Assembly: GCA_020435335.1 (NCBI GenBank)
Contig: JAGQZT010000027.1
Coordinates: 1-64,000, forward strand
DNA length: 64,000 nt
Direction: 5' to 3'
DNA from: Flavobacteriales bacterium
GTDB lineage: Bacteria; Bacteroidota; Bacteroidia; Flavobacteriales_E; Vicingaceae
Below the pieces are notes generated by a model. The model worked only from the letters and a program-made list of their open reading frames with translations. It was not told the DNA's origin and did not search any database. Of this stretch, positions 11,849 to 49,980 are shown in pieces (position 1 is the first letter of the stretch; every line of letters starts with the position of its first letter). The translations under genes and the position numbers were made by a program.

Positions 11849-12232
11849 TTAAACTGCTTTCACCTCAATTAGTGAAATTTTTGTGTGAATGGAACTTTTA
11901 AAATCCTCTCCCAGCTCACGCATGTCATCATCTTCCGATAAATAATGCCATTCAATCGAGAAATCGAGGCCCTGATCGATGTTATCATCGATGGTGGATA
12001 ATAATTCGTAAATAAACTGGAGGGAACTGGTGTTGATGTATGACAATTTGAACACCATTTGATTCTTATCCGGACCGGTTTTCATATAGTCTTTTAACCA
12101 GTTGATGACGGGAGCGTAGAATTCCACGCTATCTTCAGGAATGGATACCCCGGAAATCTGCAAAACACCTGAATCGACATTGAAGTCGATATCAGGCGTT
12201 TTCGGTGTTTCGTATATTCTTAAACTCTTCAA
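11849..12232 (-). CDS. siaC: SiaC family regulatory phosphoprotein (DUF1987)
   Basis: The 127-residue protein matches the SiaC/DUF1987 family: an N-terminal PDIDFNVDSGVLQISGVSIPED strand pattern and the central NTSS phospho-acceptor region (YINTSSLQF, near residues 66-74). In Pseudomonas, SiaC is phosphorylated by the kinase SiaB and dephosphorylated by the phosphatase SiaA. It controls a diguanylate cyclase and biofilm formation. None of those partners is visible here. The gene starts 13 nt after fadE and is probably on the same transcript. The link to fatty-acid oxidation is positional only. Confidence 0.8.
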   Translation of the reverse strand: MKSLRIYETPKTPDIDFNVDSGVLQISGVSIPEDSVEFYAPVINWLKDYMKTGPDKNQMVFKLSYINTSSLQFIYELLSTIDDNIDQGLDFSIEWHYLSEDDDMRELGEDFKSSIHTKISLIEVKAV

Positions 12233-12245
12233 AAAATCTCAATAC

Positions 12246-14030
12246 CTAATAGCAATACTTGCCTTCAGCTATGATATGACCAGCGATCCTTTGTCGTGCT
12301 TCTTTTATATTGTAAGGCTGCTGCTTTGTAAAACGTTTTAATCCCATTAACATCATACGCAACTCGTCGCCTTCAACAAAAGAATTTAAAGCATCTTTGC
12401 CATACTTACTGATCTTGTCGGCAGCATCATAGAGATATACGTTCATGATGTCAATTTGTTCCGTTAATTTTCCTTTATTTTCGCTTTTTGCGAGCTTTTC
12501 TACCCTAAGTAAAACAGATTCAGCAACATAAGTTTCAATGATCATATCAGAAATATTCATCAGGATTTCCTGTTCCTTCGCCAATTGCATCATCAGCTTC
12601 TGAGCGGCACTTCCCGCGACCATCAAAACAGCCTTCTTAAATTTCTTCACCTGCTCATGAGCCAGCTCAAACGGATCGGTACCTGGTTCATCAAAATCGG
12701 GTATCCCCATCAACTCGGAAGCAACGCTTTGTGCTGCAGTCATCAGATCCAACTCTCCTTTCATGGCTTTCTTCAACAGGGTGTCGACAATCAGCATCCG
12801 GTTGATCTCATTGGTTCCTTCAAAGATGCGGTTGATCCGTGCATCCCGGTAGGCCCGTTCCATTGGTGCCTCGGCAGAATAACCCATTCCGCCATAAATC
12901 TGAACGCCTTCATCCACCACGTAGTCGAGTACTTCCGAAGCATGTACTTTTAGGATGGCCGCCTCAGCAGCAAACTGACGAATCCCTTCGAGCGTTGCCG
13001 CTTCTTTATCCATTCCACCCTGAACAAGCGACTCGATCGCATCCTCAATATTCTGCGAACAACGATACACGGCAGCATTGCTGGAATATGTCATCACGGC
13101 CTGCTGCGCCAATTTGTGCCTGATCGCTCCGTACTTGGAGATCGGCCGGCCGAACTGCTGGCGTTCGTTAGCATAATTAACCGCCTTATTGATTACCCTT
13201 TTGGAACCACCGATAGCAGCACCGGCTAACTTGATCCGGCCGATGTTCAGGATGTTCAAAGCAATTTTGAACCCTCCCTGTCGCTCTCCCAGTAAGTTCT
13301 CTACAGGTACTTTACAATCGTTAAAAAACACCTGACGGGTTGAAGAACCTTTGATTCCCATTTTCTTTTCTTCGGGATTCAACTCCACCCCGCCGAAGGA
13401 TTTCTCCACGATGAAAGCAGACAGATTTTCGTCATCATCGATCTTGGCGAAAACGGTAAACACATCGGCAAAACCGGCGTTGGTGATCCACATTTTTTGT
13501 CCGTTGATGATGTAGTGTTTTCCATCGGCACTCAAAACGGCCTTGGTCTTCCCGGAATTGGCATCCGACCCCGAGCCCGGTTCGGTCAGACAGTACGAAG
13601 CTTTCCATTCGCCGGAAGCTAATTTCGGAACATACTTTTCCCGCTGCTCTTTCGTTCCGTAGTACAAAATCGGTAAGGTTCCGATTCCGGTATGTGCAGA
13701 AAGTGATACCGCAAACGAGTGGGATCCGCCGATCACCTCGGTGGACAACATCCCGGTTACGAAATTCTTTCCGAAGCCTCCGTACTCTTCGGGAATGGTA
13801 ATACTGAGCAAGCCGAGTTCACCGGCCTTATCCAACAGCGAAGGGGTTAATCCTTCTTCCATGCTGTCGATCCGGTCTAAGTTGGGATCGATTTCCTGGG
13901 CAATAAAATCGTGACACGATTGGGCGATCATGAGTTGTTCTTCATCGAACTCCTCGGGGATAAAAACATTTTCAGGTTTGGTTTCCTTGATCAGGAATTC
14001 ACCACCTTTGGTTACATCTTTCTTTTCCAT
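12246..14030 (-). CDS. fadE: Acyl-CoA dehydrogenase (long C-terminal form)
   Basis: The enzyme makes the first oxidation of acyl-CoA to trans-2-enoyl-CoA with FAD. The 594-residue protein has the N-terminal helical domain, the FAD/substrate signatures CLTEPGSGSD and WITNAG, and the catalytic glutamate in FEGTNE. It also has a ~170-residue C-terminal extension like VLCAD and Bacillus FadE, which has nearly the same length. It lies 3 nt after a GNAT gene and downstream of fadN and fadA. Together these make a complete beta-oxidation spiral apart from the acyl-CoA synthetase and an electron-transfer partner, which are not in the window. Confidence 0.95.
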   Translation of the reverse strand: MEKKDVTKGGEFLIKETKPENVFIPEEFDEEQLMIAQSCHDFIAQEIDPNLDRIDSMEEGLTPSLLDKAGELGLLSITIPEEYGGFGKNFVTGMLSTEVIGGSHSFAVSLSAHTGIGTLPILYYGTKEQREKYVPKLASGEWKASYCLTEPGSGSDANSGKTKAVLSADGKHYIINGQKMWITNAGFADVFTVFAKIDDDENLSAFIVEKSFGGVELNPEEKKMGIKGSSTRQVFFNDCKVPVENLLGERQGGFKIALNILNIGRIKLAGAAIGGSKRVINKAVNYANERQQFGRPISKYGAIRHKLAQQAVMTYSSNAAVYRCSQNIEDAIESLVQGGMDKEAATLEGIRQFAAEAAILKVHASEVLDYVVDEGVQIYGGMGYSAEAPMERAYRDARINRIFEGTNEINRMLIVDTLLKKAMKGELDLMTAAQSVASELMGIPDFDEPGTDPFELAHEQVKKFKKAVLMVAGSAAQKLMMQLAKEQEILMNISDMIIETYVAESVLLRVEKLAKSENKGKLTEQIDIMNVYLYDAADKISKYGKDALNSFVEGDELRMMLMGLKRFTKQQPYNIKEARQRIAGHIIAEGKYCY

Positions 14031-14033
14031 AGT

Positions 14034-14480
14034 TTATTGGTTTATTCTGTAATACATCAATTTGTGCGGGCCAATGTTCCGGACTTCATAAAAATCTCCG
14101 GTTACCTCGAATCCCATTTTTTCATAAAAACCCAGAGCTATTTTCCGGGCATCACACCACAACAGATCAATCCCTTCGTTTTTTAATTTATCGAGTGCAA
14201 AATCGATCACTCGCTTTCCGTAATTCCCTCCGCGAACATCCGGGGATGAAGCCATCGCTCGCAAACGGTATTGTTTTTTGGCGTCAAATTGTTCGTTTCG
14301 TTGAATCAGAAAGGTTCCGATTGCCACCACTTTTCCATCTTTCAATGCTCCGACATGAAAGGTTCCTTCGGTTTCATCCACATCAATCCCACACTGATCA
14401 AGCCGATCGAGATGAGGCCATAAAACCTCCAGCCGCAACGGGTAAGTCTCTTCCGGTGAAATCAATCTGACCTCGTCCAT
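14034..14480 (-). CDS. GNAT family N-acetyltransferase
   Basis: The 148-residue protein is a single GNAT domain. The acetyl-CoA-binding motif A is visible as RAMASSPDVRGGNYGKRVIDFAL (near residues 72-95). The C-terminal beta-strand stretch is IDLLWCDARKIALGFYEKMGFEVTGDFYEV. The substrate is unknown. The gene is wedged between fadA and fadE and shares one base with the fadA stop (14480), so it is translated with the beta-oxidation enzymes. It could acetylate one of them or use the acetyl-CoA they produce, but that is speculation. Confidence 0.85.
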   Translation of the reverse strand: MDEVRLISPEETYPLRLEVLWPHLDRLDQCGIDVDETEGTFHVGALKDGKVVAIGTFLIQRNEQFDAKKQYRLRAMASSPDVRGGNYGKRVIDFALDKLKNEGIDLLWCDARKIALGFYEKMGFEVTGDFYEVRNIGPHKLMYYRINQ

Positions 14481-15658
14481 TATTTCAACAATTCAAAGAT
14501 ACCTGCGGCACCTTGCCCGGTTCCCACACACATGGTGACCATGCCGTATTTCTGTTTCCTGCGACGCATTTCGTTGAACAATTGCACCGATAATTTAGCA
14601 CCGGAACAGCCCAGCGGGTGACCTAAAGCGATGGCTCCGCCGTTTACGTTCACGATATCCGGGTTCAATCCCAGTTCACGGATCACGGCTACCGATTGCG
14701 ATGCAAAGGCTTCATTCAACTCGATCAGCTCAATGTCCTGGATGTTCATGCCGGCACGTTTCACCACTTCGGGAATCGCCTTTACGGGACCGATTCCCAT
14801 GATGCGGGGCTCCACACCGACTACCTGATAGCTCACCAGGCGGGCAATCGGCTCCAGACCCAATTCTTTTACACGCTTTTCGCTCATCACCAACACGAAT
14901 GCAGCTCCGTCGGAAGTCTGGGATGAATTTCCGGCCGTAACACTTCCGTCCTGAGCAAATACAGGCCGTAGTTTGGACAAGGCTTCCACATTCGTTCCTG
15001 CTCTCGGCCCTTCGTCGGTGTCAACGGTAAAGGTTCTGGTTTCCCGTTTATGCGCTTCATTCACGAAGATCTCCTCCACTTCGATGGGGAAAATGTCGTC
15101 ATTGAATTTTCCTTCTTCTATGGCTTTAAGCGCTTTCATGTGTGAATGAAAGGCAAATTCATCCTGAACTTCACGCGAAATGTTGAATTGAGTAGCCACA
15201 GCTTCGGCCGTTAAGCCCATCCCCCAATACCAGTCGGGGTGATTCTTCCCGATATCGGCATTCGGCACCACGCGCCATCCGCCCATCGGGATCAGACTCA
15301 TGGATTCCACTCCTCCGGCAATGATGCAATCAGCCAAACCGGCATTGATCTTCGCTGCCGCAATGGCGATGGTCTCCAGTCCGGAAGAACAATAACGGTT
15401 TACGGTCATGCCCGGCACTTTTTCCGTTTGCAACCCCATTAAAGAGATCAGTCGACCCATATTCAGGCCTTGCTCCGCCTCGGGCATCGCGTTTCCGACG
15501 ATCACATCGTCGATGGTCTCTTTATCCAGATTCGGTACCGATTTCACCAGGTGGTTAATCAGTTTTGCGGCGAGGTCATCTGGTCGTGTAAACCGGAATC
15601 CGCCACGGCTGGCTTTTCCTACTGCTGTTCTGTATCCTGCTACAATGTATGCGTTCAT
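14480..15658 (-). CDS. fadA: Acetyl-CoA C-acyltransferase (3-ketoacyl-CoA thiolase)
   Basis: The thiolase cleaves 3-ketoacyl-CoA to acetyl-CoA and a shortened acyl-CoA. I set the start at 15658 (MNAYIVAGYRTAVGK), where thiolases normally begin. The in-frame extension to 15724 runs through a repeat element and is unlikely to be translated. The 392 residues include the nucleophile Cys90 (VNRYCSSGLETI), the His of GHPLGCSGA and the second cysteine in MCVGTGQG. The size matches the family. It follows fadN on the same strand after a 103-nt gap that contains an interspersed repeat. Confidence 0.95.
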   Translation of the reverse strand: MNAYIVAGYRTAVGKASRGGFRFTRPDDLAAKLINHLVKSVPNLDKETIDDVIVGNAMPEAEQGLNMGRLISLMGLQTEKVPGMTVNRYCSSGLETIAIAAAKINAGLADCIIAGGVESMSLIPMGGWRVVPNADIGKNHPDWYWGMGLTAEAVATQFNISREVQDEFAFHSHMKALKAIEEGKFNDDIFPIEVEEIFVNEAHKRETRTFTVDTDEGPRAGTNVEALSKLRPVFAQDGSVTAGNSSQTSDGAAFVLVMSEKRVKELGLEPIARLVSYQVVGVEPRIMGIGPVKAIPEVVKRAGMNIQDIELIELNEAFASQSVAVIRELGLNPDIVNVNGGAIALGHPLGCSGAKLSVQLFNEMRRRKQKYGMVTMCVGTGQGAAGIFELLK

Positions 15659-15761: not shown

Positions 15762-18143
15762 TTAATTTCTCAATACTTTTCCTGAAGTGATGATGCTTTG
15801 CAATCGTTCCAGGGTTTTCCGTTTGGTACACAGTTCCAGGAAAGTCTTCCGTTCCATGTCCAGCAAATACTGCTCATCCACCACAGTCGGTGTGGAAAGG
15901 TCTCCTCCGCAGAACACCCAGCCCAGTTTCTCGGAAATCAATTGGTCGTGTTCGGAGATGTAATGACCGGCTTTCATGGTATCCGCGCCGACGTATGCGA
16001 TTCCCAAACCTTCTTTCCCCAACACGGTTATATCCGTTCTCGGAACGGGTTGCGAATAGCCTTTGTTAGCCAGGTTCAGTGCCGCTGCTTTGGCATACGA
16101 CAACTGATGTTTACGGCTTACGATCCATTCATCCTGTCCGCGACGCAGGTACCCCAGTTCAAAGGCTTCTTCGGCCGAGGTAGCAACCTGCGCCTGTCCG
16201 ATGGTCAGGAAACGTTTTTTCAGGACATTGATACGGACACCGTCTTCGTACTCGTCGGAAGCGCGGGCAGCAAACTCTTTGGTTCCACCACCACCGGGAA
16301 TTACCCCAACTCCGAATTCAACGAGACCCATGTACGTTTCGGCATGAGCCACCACCTTATCGGCATGCATGCTCATCTCACACCCTCCGCCCAACGCCAG
16401 ATTGTGGGTTGCCACAACCACCGGAATGGAAGAATAACGGATGCGCATCATCGTATTCTGGAAGGTGCGGATCGCAAAATCCAACTCATCGTATTCCTGC
16501 TCAACCGCCATCATGAAAATCATGCCGACATTGGCGCCGGCCGAGAAATTATCCCCGTCGTTGTAGATCACGAGGCCTTTGTAACTTGCTTCTGCCAGAT
16601 CGATGGCCTTATTGATTCCCTGGATCACTTCACCACCGATGGTATTCATCTTGGTATGGAATTCCAGGTTCAGGATGCCATCGCCCAGGTCGGTAATGGT
16701 AGCTCCTGAGTTTTTCCAGATCGTTTTTTCGTCGCGGATCACTTCCAGGCTCAGTACGTCTTCACTACCCGGAATGACCTGATAACCTTTCGATTCGATA
16801 TCGTAGAAATATTTTACGCCGTTCTCGATTTTGTAGAAGGTCGGACAACCGGCTGCCAGCATGTCTTTCACCCAGGCATTTACGGTTAATCCCATCGCTT
16901 CCATCATCGGAATGGTCTGTTCCGCACCGAGTACGTCCCAGGTTTCGAATGGGCCCATTGCCCAGCCAAATCCGGCATTGAGCGCATCGTCGATTTTGTA
17001 AAGCGCATCGGTAATTTCAGGAATCCGGTTGGAAACATAGCTGAATAACCCGAAAAAAGACTTGCGGTAAAATTCTCCGGCTTTGTCTTTTCCGGCAACG
17101 AGCACTTTGGTTCGTTCTTTCAGGTCGTCAATGGTTTTGGTTACTTCGAGCGTGGCGAATTTGGCGCTCTTTTTCGAGCGATATTCGAGGGTATCCAGAT
17201 CGAGCGACAAAATTTCACTCTTGCCATCGCCGGTTTTTACTTTCTTATAGAACCCTTGTTTGGTTTTGGATCCCAGCCAATTGTTTTCCACCATCTTACT
17301 CACATAATCCGGAATGGCAAACAGTGCATTGGCCTCATCATCTTTACAATTCTCTTTCAGACCGTTGGCCACATGGACTAGGGTATCGAGACCCACTACG
17401 TCGCAGGTACGGAAGGTGGCTGATTTCATGCGGCCGATCACCGGACCGGTCAGCTTGTCGACTTCCTCGATGGTGAGGTCCATTTCTTTTACATTATGAA
17501 ACAAAGCCATGATGGAATAAACGCCGATGCGATTAGCGATAAAAGCCGGCGTATCCTTACAAACTACCGTGGTTTTTCCGAGGTAACGCTGACCGTAATC
17601 TTCGAGAAAAGCCATCACGTCGGGGCTGGTCTTCGGAGAAGGAATCAACTCCAGCAAACGCAGGTAACGCGGCGGATTGAAGAAGTGCGTACCGCAAAAA
17701 TGAGCCTGAAAATCCTCGCTTCTGCCGTCCAGCATCAGGTGGATCGGAATCCCCGAAGTATTGGTCGTGATGAGTGTTCCGGGTTTCCGGTATTTCTCCA
17801 CATTGGCAAACACCTGTTGTTTGATGTCGAGGCGTTCGATCACCACTTCGATCACCCAATCGCAATCGGCGATCTTCGGAAGATCATCGTCGAGATTACC
17901 GGTAGTGATCCGGTTCACAAATTTCTTGCTGTAGATCGGTGACGGGTTGGATTTGAGGGCAAACTGTAAGGCATCGTTCACGATCTTATTGCGTGCTGCC
18001 GGATCGGCACTTTCGGCAGCTTGTTTCGGAACGATATCCAGAAGCAGCACCTCCACGCCGATGTTGGCGAAATGACAGGCAATACGGGAACCCATTACTC
18101 CCGAACCCAGTACAGCTACTTTTTTAATGACTCTGTTTTTCAT
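15762..18143 (-). CDS. fadN: 3-hydroxyacyl-CoA dehydrogenase / enoyl-CoA hydratase
   Basis: The bifunctional enzyme hydrates trans-2-enoyl-CoA and oxidises the 3-hydroxyacyl-CoA with NAD. The 793 residues begin with the NAD-binding fold (VAVLGSGVMGSRIACHFAN at 9-27), followed by the 3HCDH domains (NRIGVYSIMALFH). They end with a crotonase domain whose oxyanion-hole signatures are FSAGANVG and HNLALGGGCEMSMHADKVV. This dehydrogenase-first order is that of Bacillus FadN (789 residues), not Escherichia FadB. With fadA and fadE it repeats the Bacillus fadNAE set. The upstream marR gene on the same strand is the likely regulator. Confidence 0.95.
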   Translation of the reverse strand: MKNRVIKKVAVLGSGVMGSRIACHFANIGVEVLLLDIVPKQAAESADPAARNKIVNDALQFALKSNPSPIYSKKFVNRITTGNLDDDLPKIADCDWVIEVVIERLDIKQQVFANVEKYRKPGTLITTNTSGIPIHLMLDGRSEDFQAHFCGTHFFNPPRYLRLLELIPSPKTSPDVMAFLEDYGQRYLGKTTVVCKDTPAFIANRIGVYSIMALFHNVKEMDLTIEEVDKLTGPVIGRMKSATFRTCDVVGLDTLVHVANGLKENCKDDEANALFAIPDYVSKMVENNWLGSKTKQGFYKKVKTGDGKSEILSLDLDTLEYRSKKSAKFATLEVTKTIDDLKERTKVLVAGKDKAGEFYRKSFFGLFSYVSNRIPEITDALYKIDDALNAGFGWAMGPFETWDVLGAEQTIPMMEAMGLTVNAWVKDMLAAGCPTFYKIENGVKYFYDIESKGYQVIPGSEDVLSLEVIRDEKTIWKNSGATITDLGDGILNLEFHTKMNTIGGEVIQGINKAIDLAEASYKGLVIYNDGDNFSAGANVGMIFMMAVEQEYDELDFAIRTFQNTMMRIRYSSIPVVVATHNLALGGGCEMSMHADKVVAHAETYMGLVEFGVGVIPGGGGTKEFAARASDEYEDGVRINVLKKRFLTIGQAQVATSAEEAFELGYLRRGQDEWIVSRKHQLSYAKAAALNLANKGYSQPVPRTDITVLGKEGLGIAYVGADTMKAGHYISEHDQLISEKLGWVFCGGDLSTPTVVDEQYLLDMERKTFLELCTKRKTLERLQSIITSGKVLRN

Positions 18144-18169
18144 ATTTGTAGTATTTTCTATCTAAAATC

Positions 18170-18290
18170 CGTGTCATCCTGAGCGGAGTCGAAGGATAGA
18201 CCCTTCGATAACCCTTCGATAAACTCAGGGTGACATTACTCAGGGTGACATTACTCAGGGTGACATTCAGGGTGACACCTCGCAATGACG
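18170..18290. repeat. Interspersed repeat with expanded 15-bp tandem units
   Basis: One arm reads GTCATCCTGAGCGGAGTCGA (from about 18172) and the other AAACTCAGGGTGAC. The second arm is expanded into three perfect tandem copies of ACTCAGGGTGACATT (18223-18237, 18238-18252, 18253-18267) plus a partial fourth (18268-18277). It fills the gap between marR and fadN. Confidence 0.75.
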
Positions 18291-18728
18291 TTAACTATTC
18301 ATTTCTTTGTATTTCTCAATAACTTTATTCACGTCTTCCATCACTTCGAAGAACACACTCAGTTTGGTTTGAGGTATTTCTTCCTGGATCAGTTCATTGA
18401 AGCCGGACACTACCTGACGGGCAACTTTACGTTTTTCCACCCCTTCAGGAGTCAGGAACAAGCGCACCACACGCTTATCTTTCTTATCTTTTTTCTTGTA
18501 GATCAGTTTGCTCTCCTCCAGGTTCTTGATGATCCGGCTCATGCTGGTAGCTTCCAGCCCTAACATAGGTGCTATGGAGGTGGAAGGCGTTCCCTCCCTG
18601 TCGATGCTCAGCAACACGAGGCCGGTAGCCTGCGTAGTCCCGAATTTCGAAGCCACCTGATTGTACATCTTAAACATGTTGTGCCAGGTAGACTTGATCT
18701 GCGCATCTATGGTCGTGATTTTTGTCAT
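18291..18728 (-). CDS. MarR family transcriptional regulator
   Basis: The 145-residue protein has the MarR winged helix: a recognition-helix region TPSTSIAPMLGLEATSMSRIIK and a wing KKDKKDKRVVRLFLTPEG. These regulators are dimers that leave DNA when a ligand binds. The neighbouring beta-oxidation genes suggest an acyl-CoA or fatty-acid ligand, which is inference. Two copies of a 14-bp near-palindrome flank its own promoter (18732-18745 and 18765-18778), so autoregulation is likely. If no separate fadN promoter exists, the whole marR-fadN-fadA-GNAT-fadE-siaC run would be under this control. Confidence 0.9.
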   Translation of the reverse strand: MTKITTIDAQIKSTWHNMFKMYNQVASKFGTTQATGLVLLSIDREGTPSTSIAPMLGLEATSMSRIIKNLEESKLIYKKKDKKDKRVVRLFLTPEGVEKRKVARQVVSGFNELIQEEIPQTKLSVFFEVMEDVNKVIEKYKEMNS

Positions 18729-18731
18729 ATA

Positions 18732-18745
18732 TTATGCTTACATAA
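18732..18745. promoter_or_regulatory. Candidate MarR operator, copy 1
   Basis: TTATGCTTACATAA: inverted half-sites TTATG and CATAA with a 4-nt spacer. It lies between the marR -7 element and the ATG, at the expected transcription start. A second copy lies 33 bp away. Confidence 0.6.
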
Positions 18746-18753
18746 CAAATATA
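18746..18753 (-). promoter_or_regulatory. -7 promoter element of marR
   Basis: A perfect TATATTTG on the minus strand, 17 nt before the marR start codon, bracketed by the two operator copies. Confidence 0.6.
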
Positions 18754-18764
18754 ATAAAATATTC

Positions 18765-18778
18765 TTATGCTCACATAA
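18765..18778. promoter_or_regulatory. Candidate MarR operator, copy 2
   Basis: TTATGCTCACATAA differs from copy 1 at one spacer base. It lies upstream of the marR -7 element, in the -20 to -33 region, where bound protein would block RNA polymerase. Confidence 0.6.
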
Positions 18779-49881: not shown

Positions 49882-49980
49882 GTCATGCTGAGTTTATCGA
49901 AGCATGAGTTTATCGAAGTATGAGTTTATCGAAGCATGACTCCATTATTTGTCTACCCTTCGATGAACTCAGGGTGACAA
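49882..49980. repeat. Interspersed repeat with expanded 16-bp tandem units
   Basis: Arm GTCATGCTGAGTTTATCGAAG (from 49882) has its inner part expanded into three 16-bp units ([AC]TGAGTTTATCGAAG[CT], 49888-49903, 49904-49919, 49920-49935). It is followed by the inverted arm CCTTCGATGAACTCAGGGTGAC (49957-49978). It lies between tgt and the LptF/LptG-like gene. Confidence 0.75.

Follow-up and report, generated by a model that had tools for sequence, protein, structure and literature searches.

Two palindromes at the promoter of a marR gene in the 64,000-nt stretch of the Flavobacteriales bacterium genome analysed here (contig JAGQZT010000027.1, positions 1 to 64,000; the window) are, with high probability, operators of the encoded MarR protein, through which it would repress its own gene and the run of beta-oxidation (fad) genes that follows. 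With less assurance, yet with the balance still in its favour, this MarR can be regarded as a class-wide repressor of beta-oxidation in the Bacteroidia that uses one operator code, TATGYNNRCATA, and that in several genera of the Vicingaceae also controls a dedicated, hitherto undescribed small RNA of ~75 nt, transcribed divergently from the same operator. Both readings are drawn from sequence comparison.

The two sites lie where the initial annotation had placed them, TTATGCTTACATAA at 18732–18745 and TTATGCTCACATAA at 18765–18778, 33 bp apart from start to start, and the TATATTTG that it had reported between them is present at 18746–18753 on the minus strand, where it abuts the lower-coordinate site. 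They had been described as near-palindromes; inverted repeats they are, but with perfect five-base arms (TTATG-N4-CATAA) around a four-base spacer. TATATTTG has the form of the Bacteroidota-type -7 box TAnnTTTG, which is placed at -12 to -5 in the accessible part of a transcriptome study of Flavobacterium psychrophilum (PMC9723704). By the box convention given there, transcription would start at about 18741, ~13 nt ahead of the marR start codon (18728), and both sites would overlap the core promoter. Numbered in this way and read, like marR, on the minus strand, the upstream operator (U, TTATGTGAGCATAA, 18765–18778) would cover about -37 to -24, that is, the -33 region, and the downstream operator (D, TTATGTAAGCATAA, 18732–18745) about -4 to +10, spanning the predicted start of transcription; because the sites overlap the core promoter, their occupation would be expected to repress rather than to activate. 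Between the 12-mer palindrome and the -7 box lie 12 bp, and the centres of the two sites are 33 bp or about three helical turns apart, so that two bound dimers would sit on nearly the same face of the DNA. There are just two copies of the motif TTATGNNNNCATAA in the window (mean of 0.03 in 100 dinucleotide shuffles, none of which contained two copies), and TAnnTTTG alone is uninformative, with 42 matches in the window against 44.5 expected. Elsewhere in the window, two identical 14-mers on the minus strand, TCATGCTTCGATAA (49894–49907 and 49926–49939), stand 32 bp apart and are weak motif-search matches.

The marR gene (18291–18728, minus strand) encodes a protein of 145 aa that belongs to the MarR family by profile as well as by fold. 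It contains the MarR winged-helix domain (PF01047, 35.8 bits against a cut-off of 24.6), and its Pfam matches with E-values up to 0.001 were four in number (MarR, MarR_2, HTH_27 and the SarA/Rot family), with no GntR or TetR DNA-binding domain of the FadR or PsrA type among them. It did not qualify as a FabT equivalog (NCBIfam NF050133, 23.7 bits against a cut-off of 200). An AlphaFold2 model of the monomer (pLDDT 91.9) was most similar to MarR proteins (Z up to 16.4, rmsd 1.7, 134 aligned residues) in a Foldseek comparison that used ranked chains only and informs on fold, not on ligand; MepR, SlyA, FabT and CouR were among its structural matches. A proposed connection between position 59 of the recognition helix (E in the clade of the window, K in the genera with the small RNA) and the inner operator bases was dropped because loci of the Flavobacteriaceae combine E with C..G inner bases.

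Downstream of marR, on the same strand, follow genes for a fadN-type 3-hydroxyacyl-CoA dehydrogenase/enoyl-CoA hydratase (15762–18143), a fadA-type acetyl-CoA acyltransferase or thiolase (14480–15658, scanned from 15661), a GNAT acetyltransferase (14034–14480), a fadE-type acyl-CoA dehydrogenase (12246–14030, above the cut-off of the NCBIfam FadE model NF058590) and a SiaC-family protein (11849–12232, PF09345, scanned from 12187). The run is close-packed save for gaps of 147 bp between marR and fadN and of ~100 bp between fadN and fadA. TATGYNNRCATA was found nowhere else in the window, which bears out the earlier claim that fadN has no copy of its own and on which the proposal of control from the marR promoter had been built. 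It is unlikely, though worth weighing, that fadN and the later genes are instead controlled mainly by elements within the run, an additional promoter or an RNA structure in the marR–fadN gap (18144–18290), and that the marR promoter is not the sole control point. This gap holds four 15-bp repeats (18223–18279), a predicted hairpin that is stable (z-score -2.7; 1 of 200 shuffles was equally stable) and, on the coding strand, one weak sigma-70-type match (9 of 12), and its length is also a point for internal control, being a local feature: several relatives have marR and fadN matches separated by no more than a few bases or a few tens of bases. The same close spacing, however, argues for one transcript, and the coding strand of the gap has no TAnnTTTG, no terminator was found on it, and the run contains no operator copy. 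marR and fadN are presumably co-transcribed across the 147-bp gap. Its repeat array and hairpin may determine how much MarR is made relative to the enzymes.

To follow the sites through the family, 46 genomes of the Vicingaceae were scanned, the same 46 that the order scan took in; 39 had some MarR match, 36 had a clear ortholog (E-value below 1e-30), and in 35 of these the DNA upstream of marR lay on the same contig. G035, whose marR contig begins 42 bases before the gene, is outside these 35. Start codons were set by extending alignments, and the distances are approximate. An exact TATGYNNRCATA was present within 70 nt of the assigned marR start in all 35 orthologs. Two sites at a distance of 32–41 bp were found in 18 of them (one mismatch was allowed in the second), comprising all ten from the genus of the window, four from g16, two from g6 and one each from g3 and g7. 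Within the genus of the window the upstream site was exact in 10/10 loci and the second site in nine, with one mismatch in the tenth, at a spacing of 32–33 bp. Elsewhere in the family the upstream site stood alone in 13 orthologs and the downstream site alone in three (three genomes of genus g6), which indicates that the scheme can do without a second site; in G040 two sites were ~100 bp apart. A strict TAnnTTTG lay between the sites in 11 of the 18 two-site loci, yet in just three of the ten from the genus of the window, where the remaining seven had TAATATTG (five loci), TACATTTA (one) or TAATATTA (one) at the place of the box, suggesting that the promoter of these seven is either a variant or wrongly placed. 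The gene order marR-fadN-fadA-fadE was kept in the long loci of the family, and in the shorter ones fadN followed marR except in L015, where the examined stretch ends too soon.

The frequency of the motif was determined in the genome of the window (3.03 Mb on 147 contigs, 93.75% complete), a search that the initial annotation had proposed on the grounds that random occurrence would speak against an operator. For the single motif, occurrence is indeed close to chance (8 places for TTATGNNNNCATAA, 7 for its reversed control), but for the pair it is not. The stricter motif of the annotation, TTATGCTnACATAA, occurs once more in the genome, at C62:27198, as one member of a second pair spaced 33 bp. 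In 12 genomes, YTATGYNNRCATAR was found at 2–7 places each and its control at 2–9, and a search of 46 genomes gave comparable numbers. Single sites near control frequency imply that the motif alone defines no regulon, and the argument therefore rests on comparison between genomes. Among 20 further places with a single site, 13 were inside predicted reading frames and seven between them, and none of these seven was clearly linked to fad genes. Two of the intergenic sites, L091 and L093, might be real; L093 (G009:C9, genus g6) is one palindrome before a gene that by eye resembles Dps, and single sites of similar sequence were seen in G008, G010 and G013. With a looser paired pattern, 12 pairs were found in the 46 family genomes against two in the reversed control, and ten of the 12 preceded marR. 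Chance was thus rejected for the pair, on the evidence of the paired pattern in the family, the shuffles and the pair scan of the class described below, and not for single sites.

The only other pair in the genome of the window (C62:27165 and 27198, 33 bp apart; G000:C62:27165–27211, about 7166–7213 in L113 and L120) lies where a glycosyltransferase gene and an HI0933-like flavoprotein gene converge, in the stretch between their ends. Repression of initiation would serve no evident purpose at such a place; roadblock termination and a decoy function are possibilities. Two palindromes within 180 bp past the flavoprotein gene were present in four of the 12 genomes of the genus that have this gene and in none of the other eight. 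Their spacing was 33, 104, 104 and 42 bp in the own genome, G019, G024 and G025, respectively, and all eight sites have inner Y..R bases, as the marR operators do.

Outside the family, 15 named loci with upstream DNA were inspected (ten from Flavobacteriaceae, one from Cytophagaceae, the rest recorded as Flavobacteriales, Bacteroidota or Bacteroidetes; L191 was left out, its contig starting too close before the gene), and a palindrome preceded marR in all 15. Thirteen of them had one palindrome starting 44–46 nt before the assigned start codon and TAnnTTTG at -21; L193 had a palindrome without a strict TAnnTTTG, and L172 had two palindromes 22 bp apart. In L180 (Flavobacteriales bacterium MED-G59), the gene ahead of marR encodes an AMP-binding acyl-CoA ligase. 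The marR ortholog of Acidiluteibacter ferrifornacis (L164) has one operator. A class-wide draw of 295 genomes contained 140 with a MarR relative at E-values up to 1e-25, from which 60 non-family loci were taken (the 20 best matches and 40 picked to represent many families; together they come from 58 of the 130 non-family genomes with a match). An exact TATGNNNNCATA was found within 220 nt upstream in 48 of these 60 loci: in 46 of the 53 with fadN adjacent, seven lacking the exact motif, and in two of the seven in which fadN is not adjacent. The layout with two sites around the -7 box also recurs in other families (L229 and L255 in f109, L231 in f2).

A scan for close pairs in 395 genomes of the class returned 26 pairs in 24 genomes, of which 15 were located before marR, nine before fadE and two elsewhere. 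The reversed paired control gave 13 places in five genomes, eight of them in one genome, so that the number of pairs is just modestly above control and it is the neighbouring genes of 24 of the 26 pairs that carry weight. The nine fadE pairs (L266–L268 and L274–L278, 42–51 bp apart) belong to eight genomes of the families f11 and f57, at least four of which (G294, G510, G537 and G610) have a MarR relative. No marR or fadN was present within the ~1.5 kb examined on either side of these fadE genes, and L267 has one more single site, 89 bp ahead of fadA. One pair (L279, G496:C33) is near an ECF sigma-factor gene, with no link to fad genes as far as seen. Where the fad genes stand together they have one control region, and where fadE stands apart it has operators of its own, which is the strongest support for control from the marR promoter. 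Taken with the 35/35 conservation in the family and the 46/53 among fadN-linked loci of the class, the fadE pairs uphold the two proposals of the initial annotation, namely autoregulation and control of the beta-oxidation run from the marR promoter.

The same comparison bears on whether the operators, though real, might be those of another transcription factor that controls the marR–fad run while MarR senses something else. That the sites are bound by this MarR is what we infer, and the second pair of the motif in the genome of the window is far from fad genes, both of which leave room for such a factor. Against it, the motif accompanies marR in all the family orthologs and in 48/60 relatives across the class, it is found in only 2/7 relatives without adjacent fadN, and a local autoregulator is a common MarR arrangement; we consider another factor improbable.

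In sister genera, the palindromes also mark a second promoter. A conserved element, GAGGTAGTAGACTTGTTAATTGGTTAGTAATTG, occurred once per genome (with up to three mismatches) in 12 of the 46 family genomes (G004, G014, G029–G035 and G038–G040), which represent six genera, and in the same search it was not found in the genus of the window. The small-RNA-like element that it marks is ~75 nt long (L039–L050, about 1497–1580 of most), is divergent from marR and, in 11 of the 12 genomes, begins 72–193 nt from the marR start codon, reading away from it. A contig break separates element and marR in G035; the contig ends (start of L085 and end of L086; C249 and C176) carry what we take to be a Nextera-type adapter, which splits the marR–small RNA region. 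The element has its own -7 box 16–18 nt ahead (TAnnTTTG in 11 of 12, TAnnTTAG in G032), and a terminator-like hairpin comes after it. The stem of this hairpin varies between genomes yet stays paired, with changes on both sides in 10 of 12 base pairs. The covariation score of the whole structure was reached by none of 500 shuffles, which related sequences can exceed through kinship alone, and the two short helices ahead of the terminator hardly vary, so that covariation says nothing about them. Since the next gene differs between genera and is mostly in opposite orientation, a free-standing RNA is likelier than a leader; the gene whose end lies past the element in L041 encodes an AMP-binding acyl-CoA ligase. 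Rfam models gave nothing at gathering score in seven small-RNA loci and two others. Some weak matches below that score overlap the element, among them those to the Bacteroides small RNA BTnc231 in L034 and L036 (22.2 and 23.4 bits against 80.4) and to the His leader in L035 (24.7 against 49); they were taken as chance, and a match of our small-RNA model R1 in G042 (L148) was merely a bidirectional terminator and was left uncounted. In the phylum scan R1 matched none of 395 genomes, which shows little given the strict filters and a sample without a positive control.

At all 12 elements a palindrome lies 10–13 bp ahead of the -7 box, a geometry like that at marR in the window, and in G040, whose two promoters are more widely separated, there is one palindrome for each. 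Judging from this arrangement of sites, MarR most likely controls the promoters of both marR and the small RNA. In the genus of the window, a second operator, placed on the marR start, is seen instead of the small RNA. That the upstream site might activate, with MarR or ligand-bound MarR recruiting polymerase and the downstream site alone repressing, could be argued from its being the commoner one in the family (alone in 13/35 orthologs, against 3 for the downstream site), but at -37 to -24, in the numbering of the accessible part of the F. psychrophilum study, it lies on the -33 element itself, where a bound protein blocks rather than recruits, and the 10–13 bp between palindrome and box are kept at the small-RNA promoters too; this makes activation very improbable. 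That the sites are AT-rich inverted repeats without an operator role, arising by chance or serving as an RNA hairpin, fits the near-control count of the single motif and can hardly be credited in the face of their conservation and placement over a class and of a site upstream of the predicted transcription start, which would be absent from the RNA.

Under repression by MarR from both palindromes, MarR dimers would, without inducer, occupy the -33 region and the transcription start and block RNA polymerase, so that marR itself and the co-transcribed fadN-fadA-GNAT-fadE-siaC run would be repressed. Upon uptake of fatty acids, an intermediate of their degradation, most likely a long-chain acyl-CoA, would bind MarR and free the operators; the run would switch on, and freshly made MarR would then shut it off again. 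The proposal of long-chain acyl-CoA as inducer is guessed from the pathway, and we give it roughly even chances.

E. coli MarR, MepR and SlyA are autorepressors with two operators. The MarR of the window shares their fold and, like them (marO in the case of E. coli MarR), has two probable inverted-repeat operators on its own core promoter; it differs from them in preceding a beta-oxidation operon, in its motif TATGYNNRCATA and in its Bacteroidota-type promoter. CouR, which in Rhodococcus acts in aromatic acid catabolism, provides a precedent for a CoA-thioester ligand (5cyv, p-coumaroyl-CoA) on the same fold (Z 14.9, rmsd 3.4, 140 aligned residues), at only 19% identity over the aligned part. 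FabT of streptococci (6jbx; Z 15.1, rmsd 2.6, 139 aligned residues), which represses fatty-acid synthesis with acyl-ACP as corepressor, has both the fold and lipid metabolism in common with the MarR of the window. The beta-oxidation repressors of other phyla, FadR, PsrA, FadP and B. subtilis FadR, are released by acyl-CoA and thus do the job proposed here, but they are members of the GntR or TetR families with unrelated operators and not of the MarR family. In Vibrio, the small RNA FarS is under FadR, and a similar wiring to a fatty-acid regulator is possible for the small RNA of the sister genera, which has a separate promoter facing away from marR.

The Bacteroidota play a major part in the degradation of organic matter. 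In F. psychrophilum, beta-oxidation genes rise with fish mucus and plasma, and the word MarR is absent from the accessible part of that report (PMC9723704). A description of a MarR operator for a Bacteroidota beta-oxidation operon was not found among the papers listed in searches of the open-licence literature. While autorepression by a MarR protein that precedes a catabolic operon is a known arrangement, the pathway targeted here, the operator code and the spread over the Bacteroidia appear to be undescribed in those papers. With a short operator that can be read from the genome, as at 46 of 53 fadN-linked loci and at the separate fadE genes, the regulon becomes predictable and the regulator directly testable. 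If it is indeed under MarR control, the small RNA would add a post-transcriptional arm to the fatty-acid response, and its position at the operator would tie a regulatory RNA of these bacteria clearly to metabolism.
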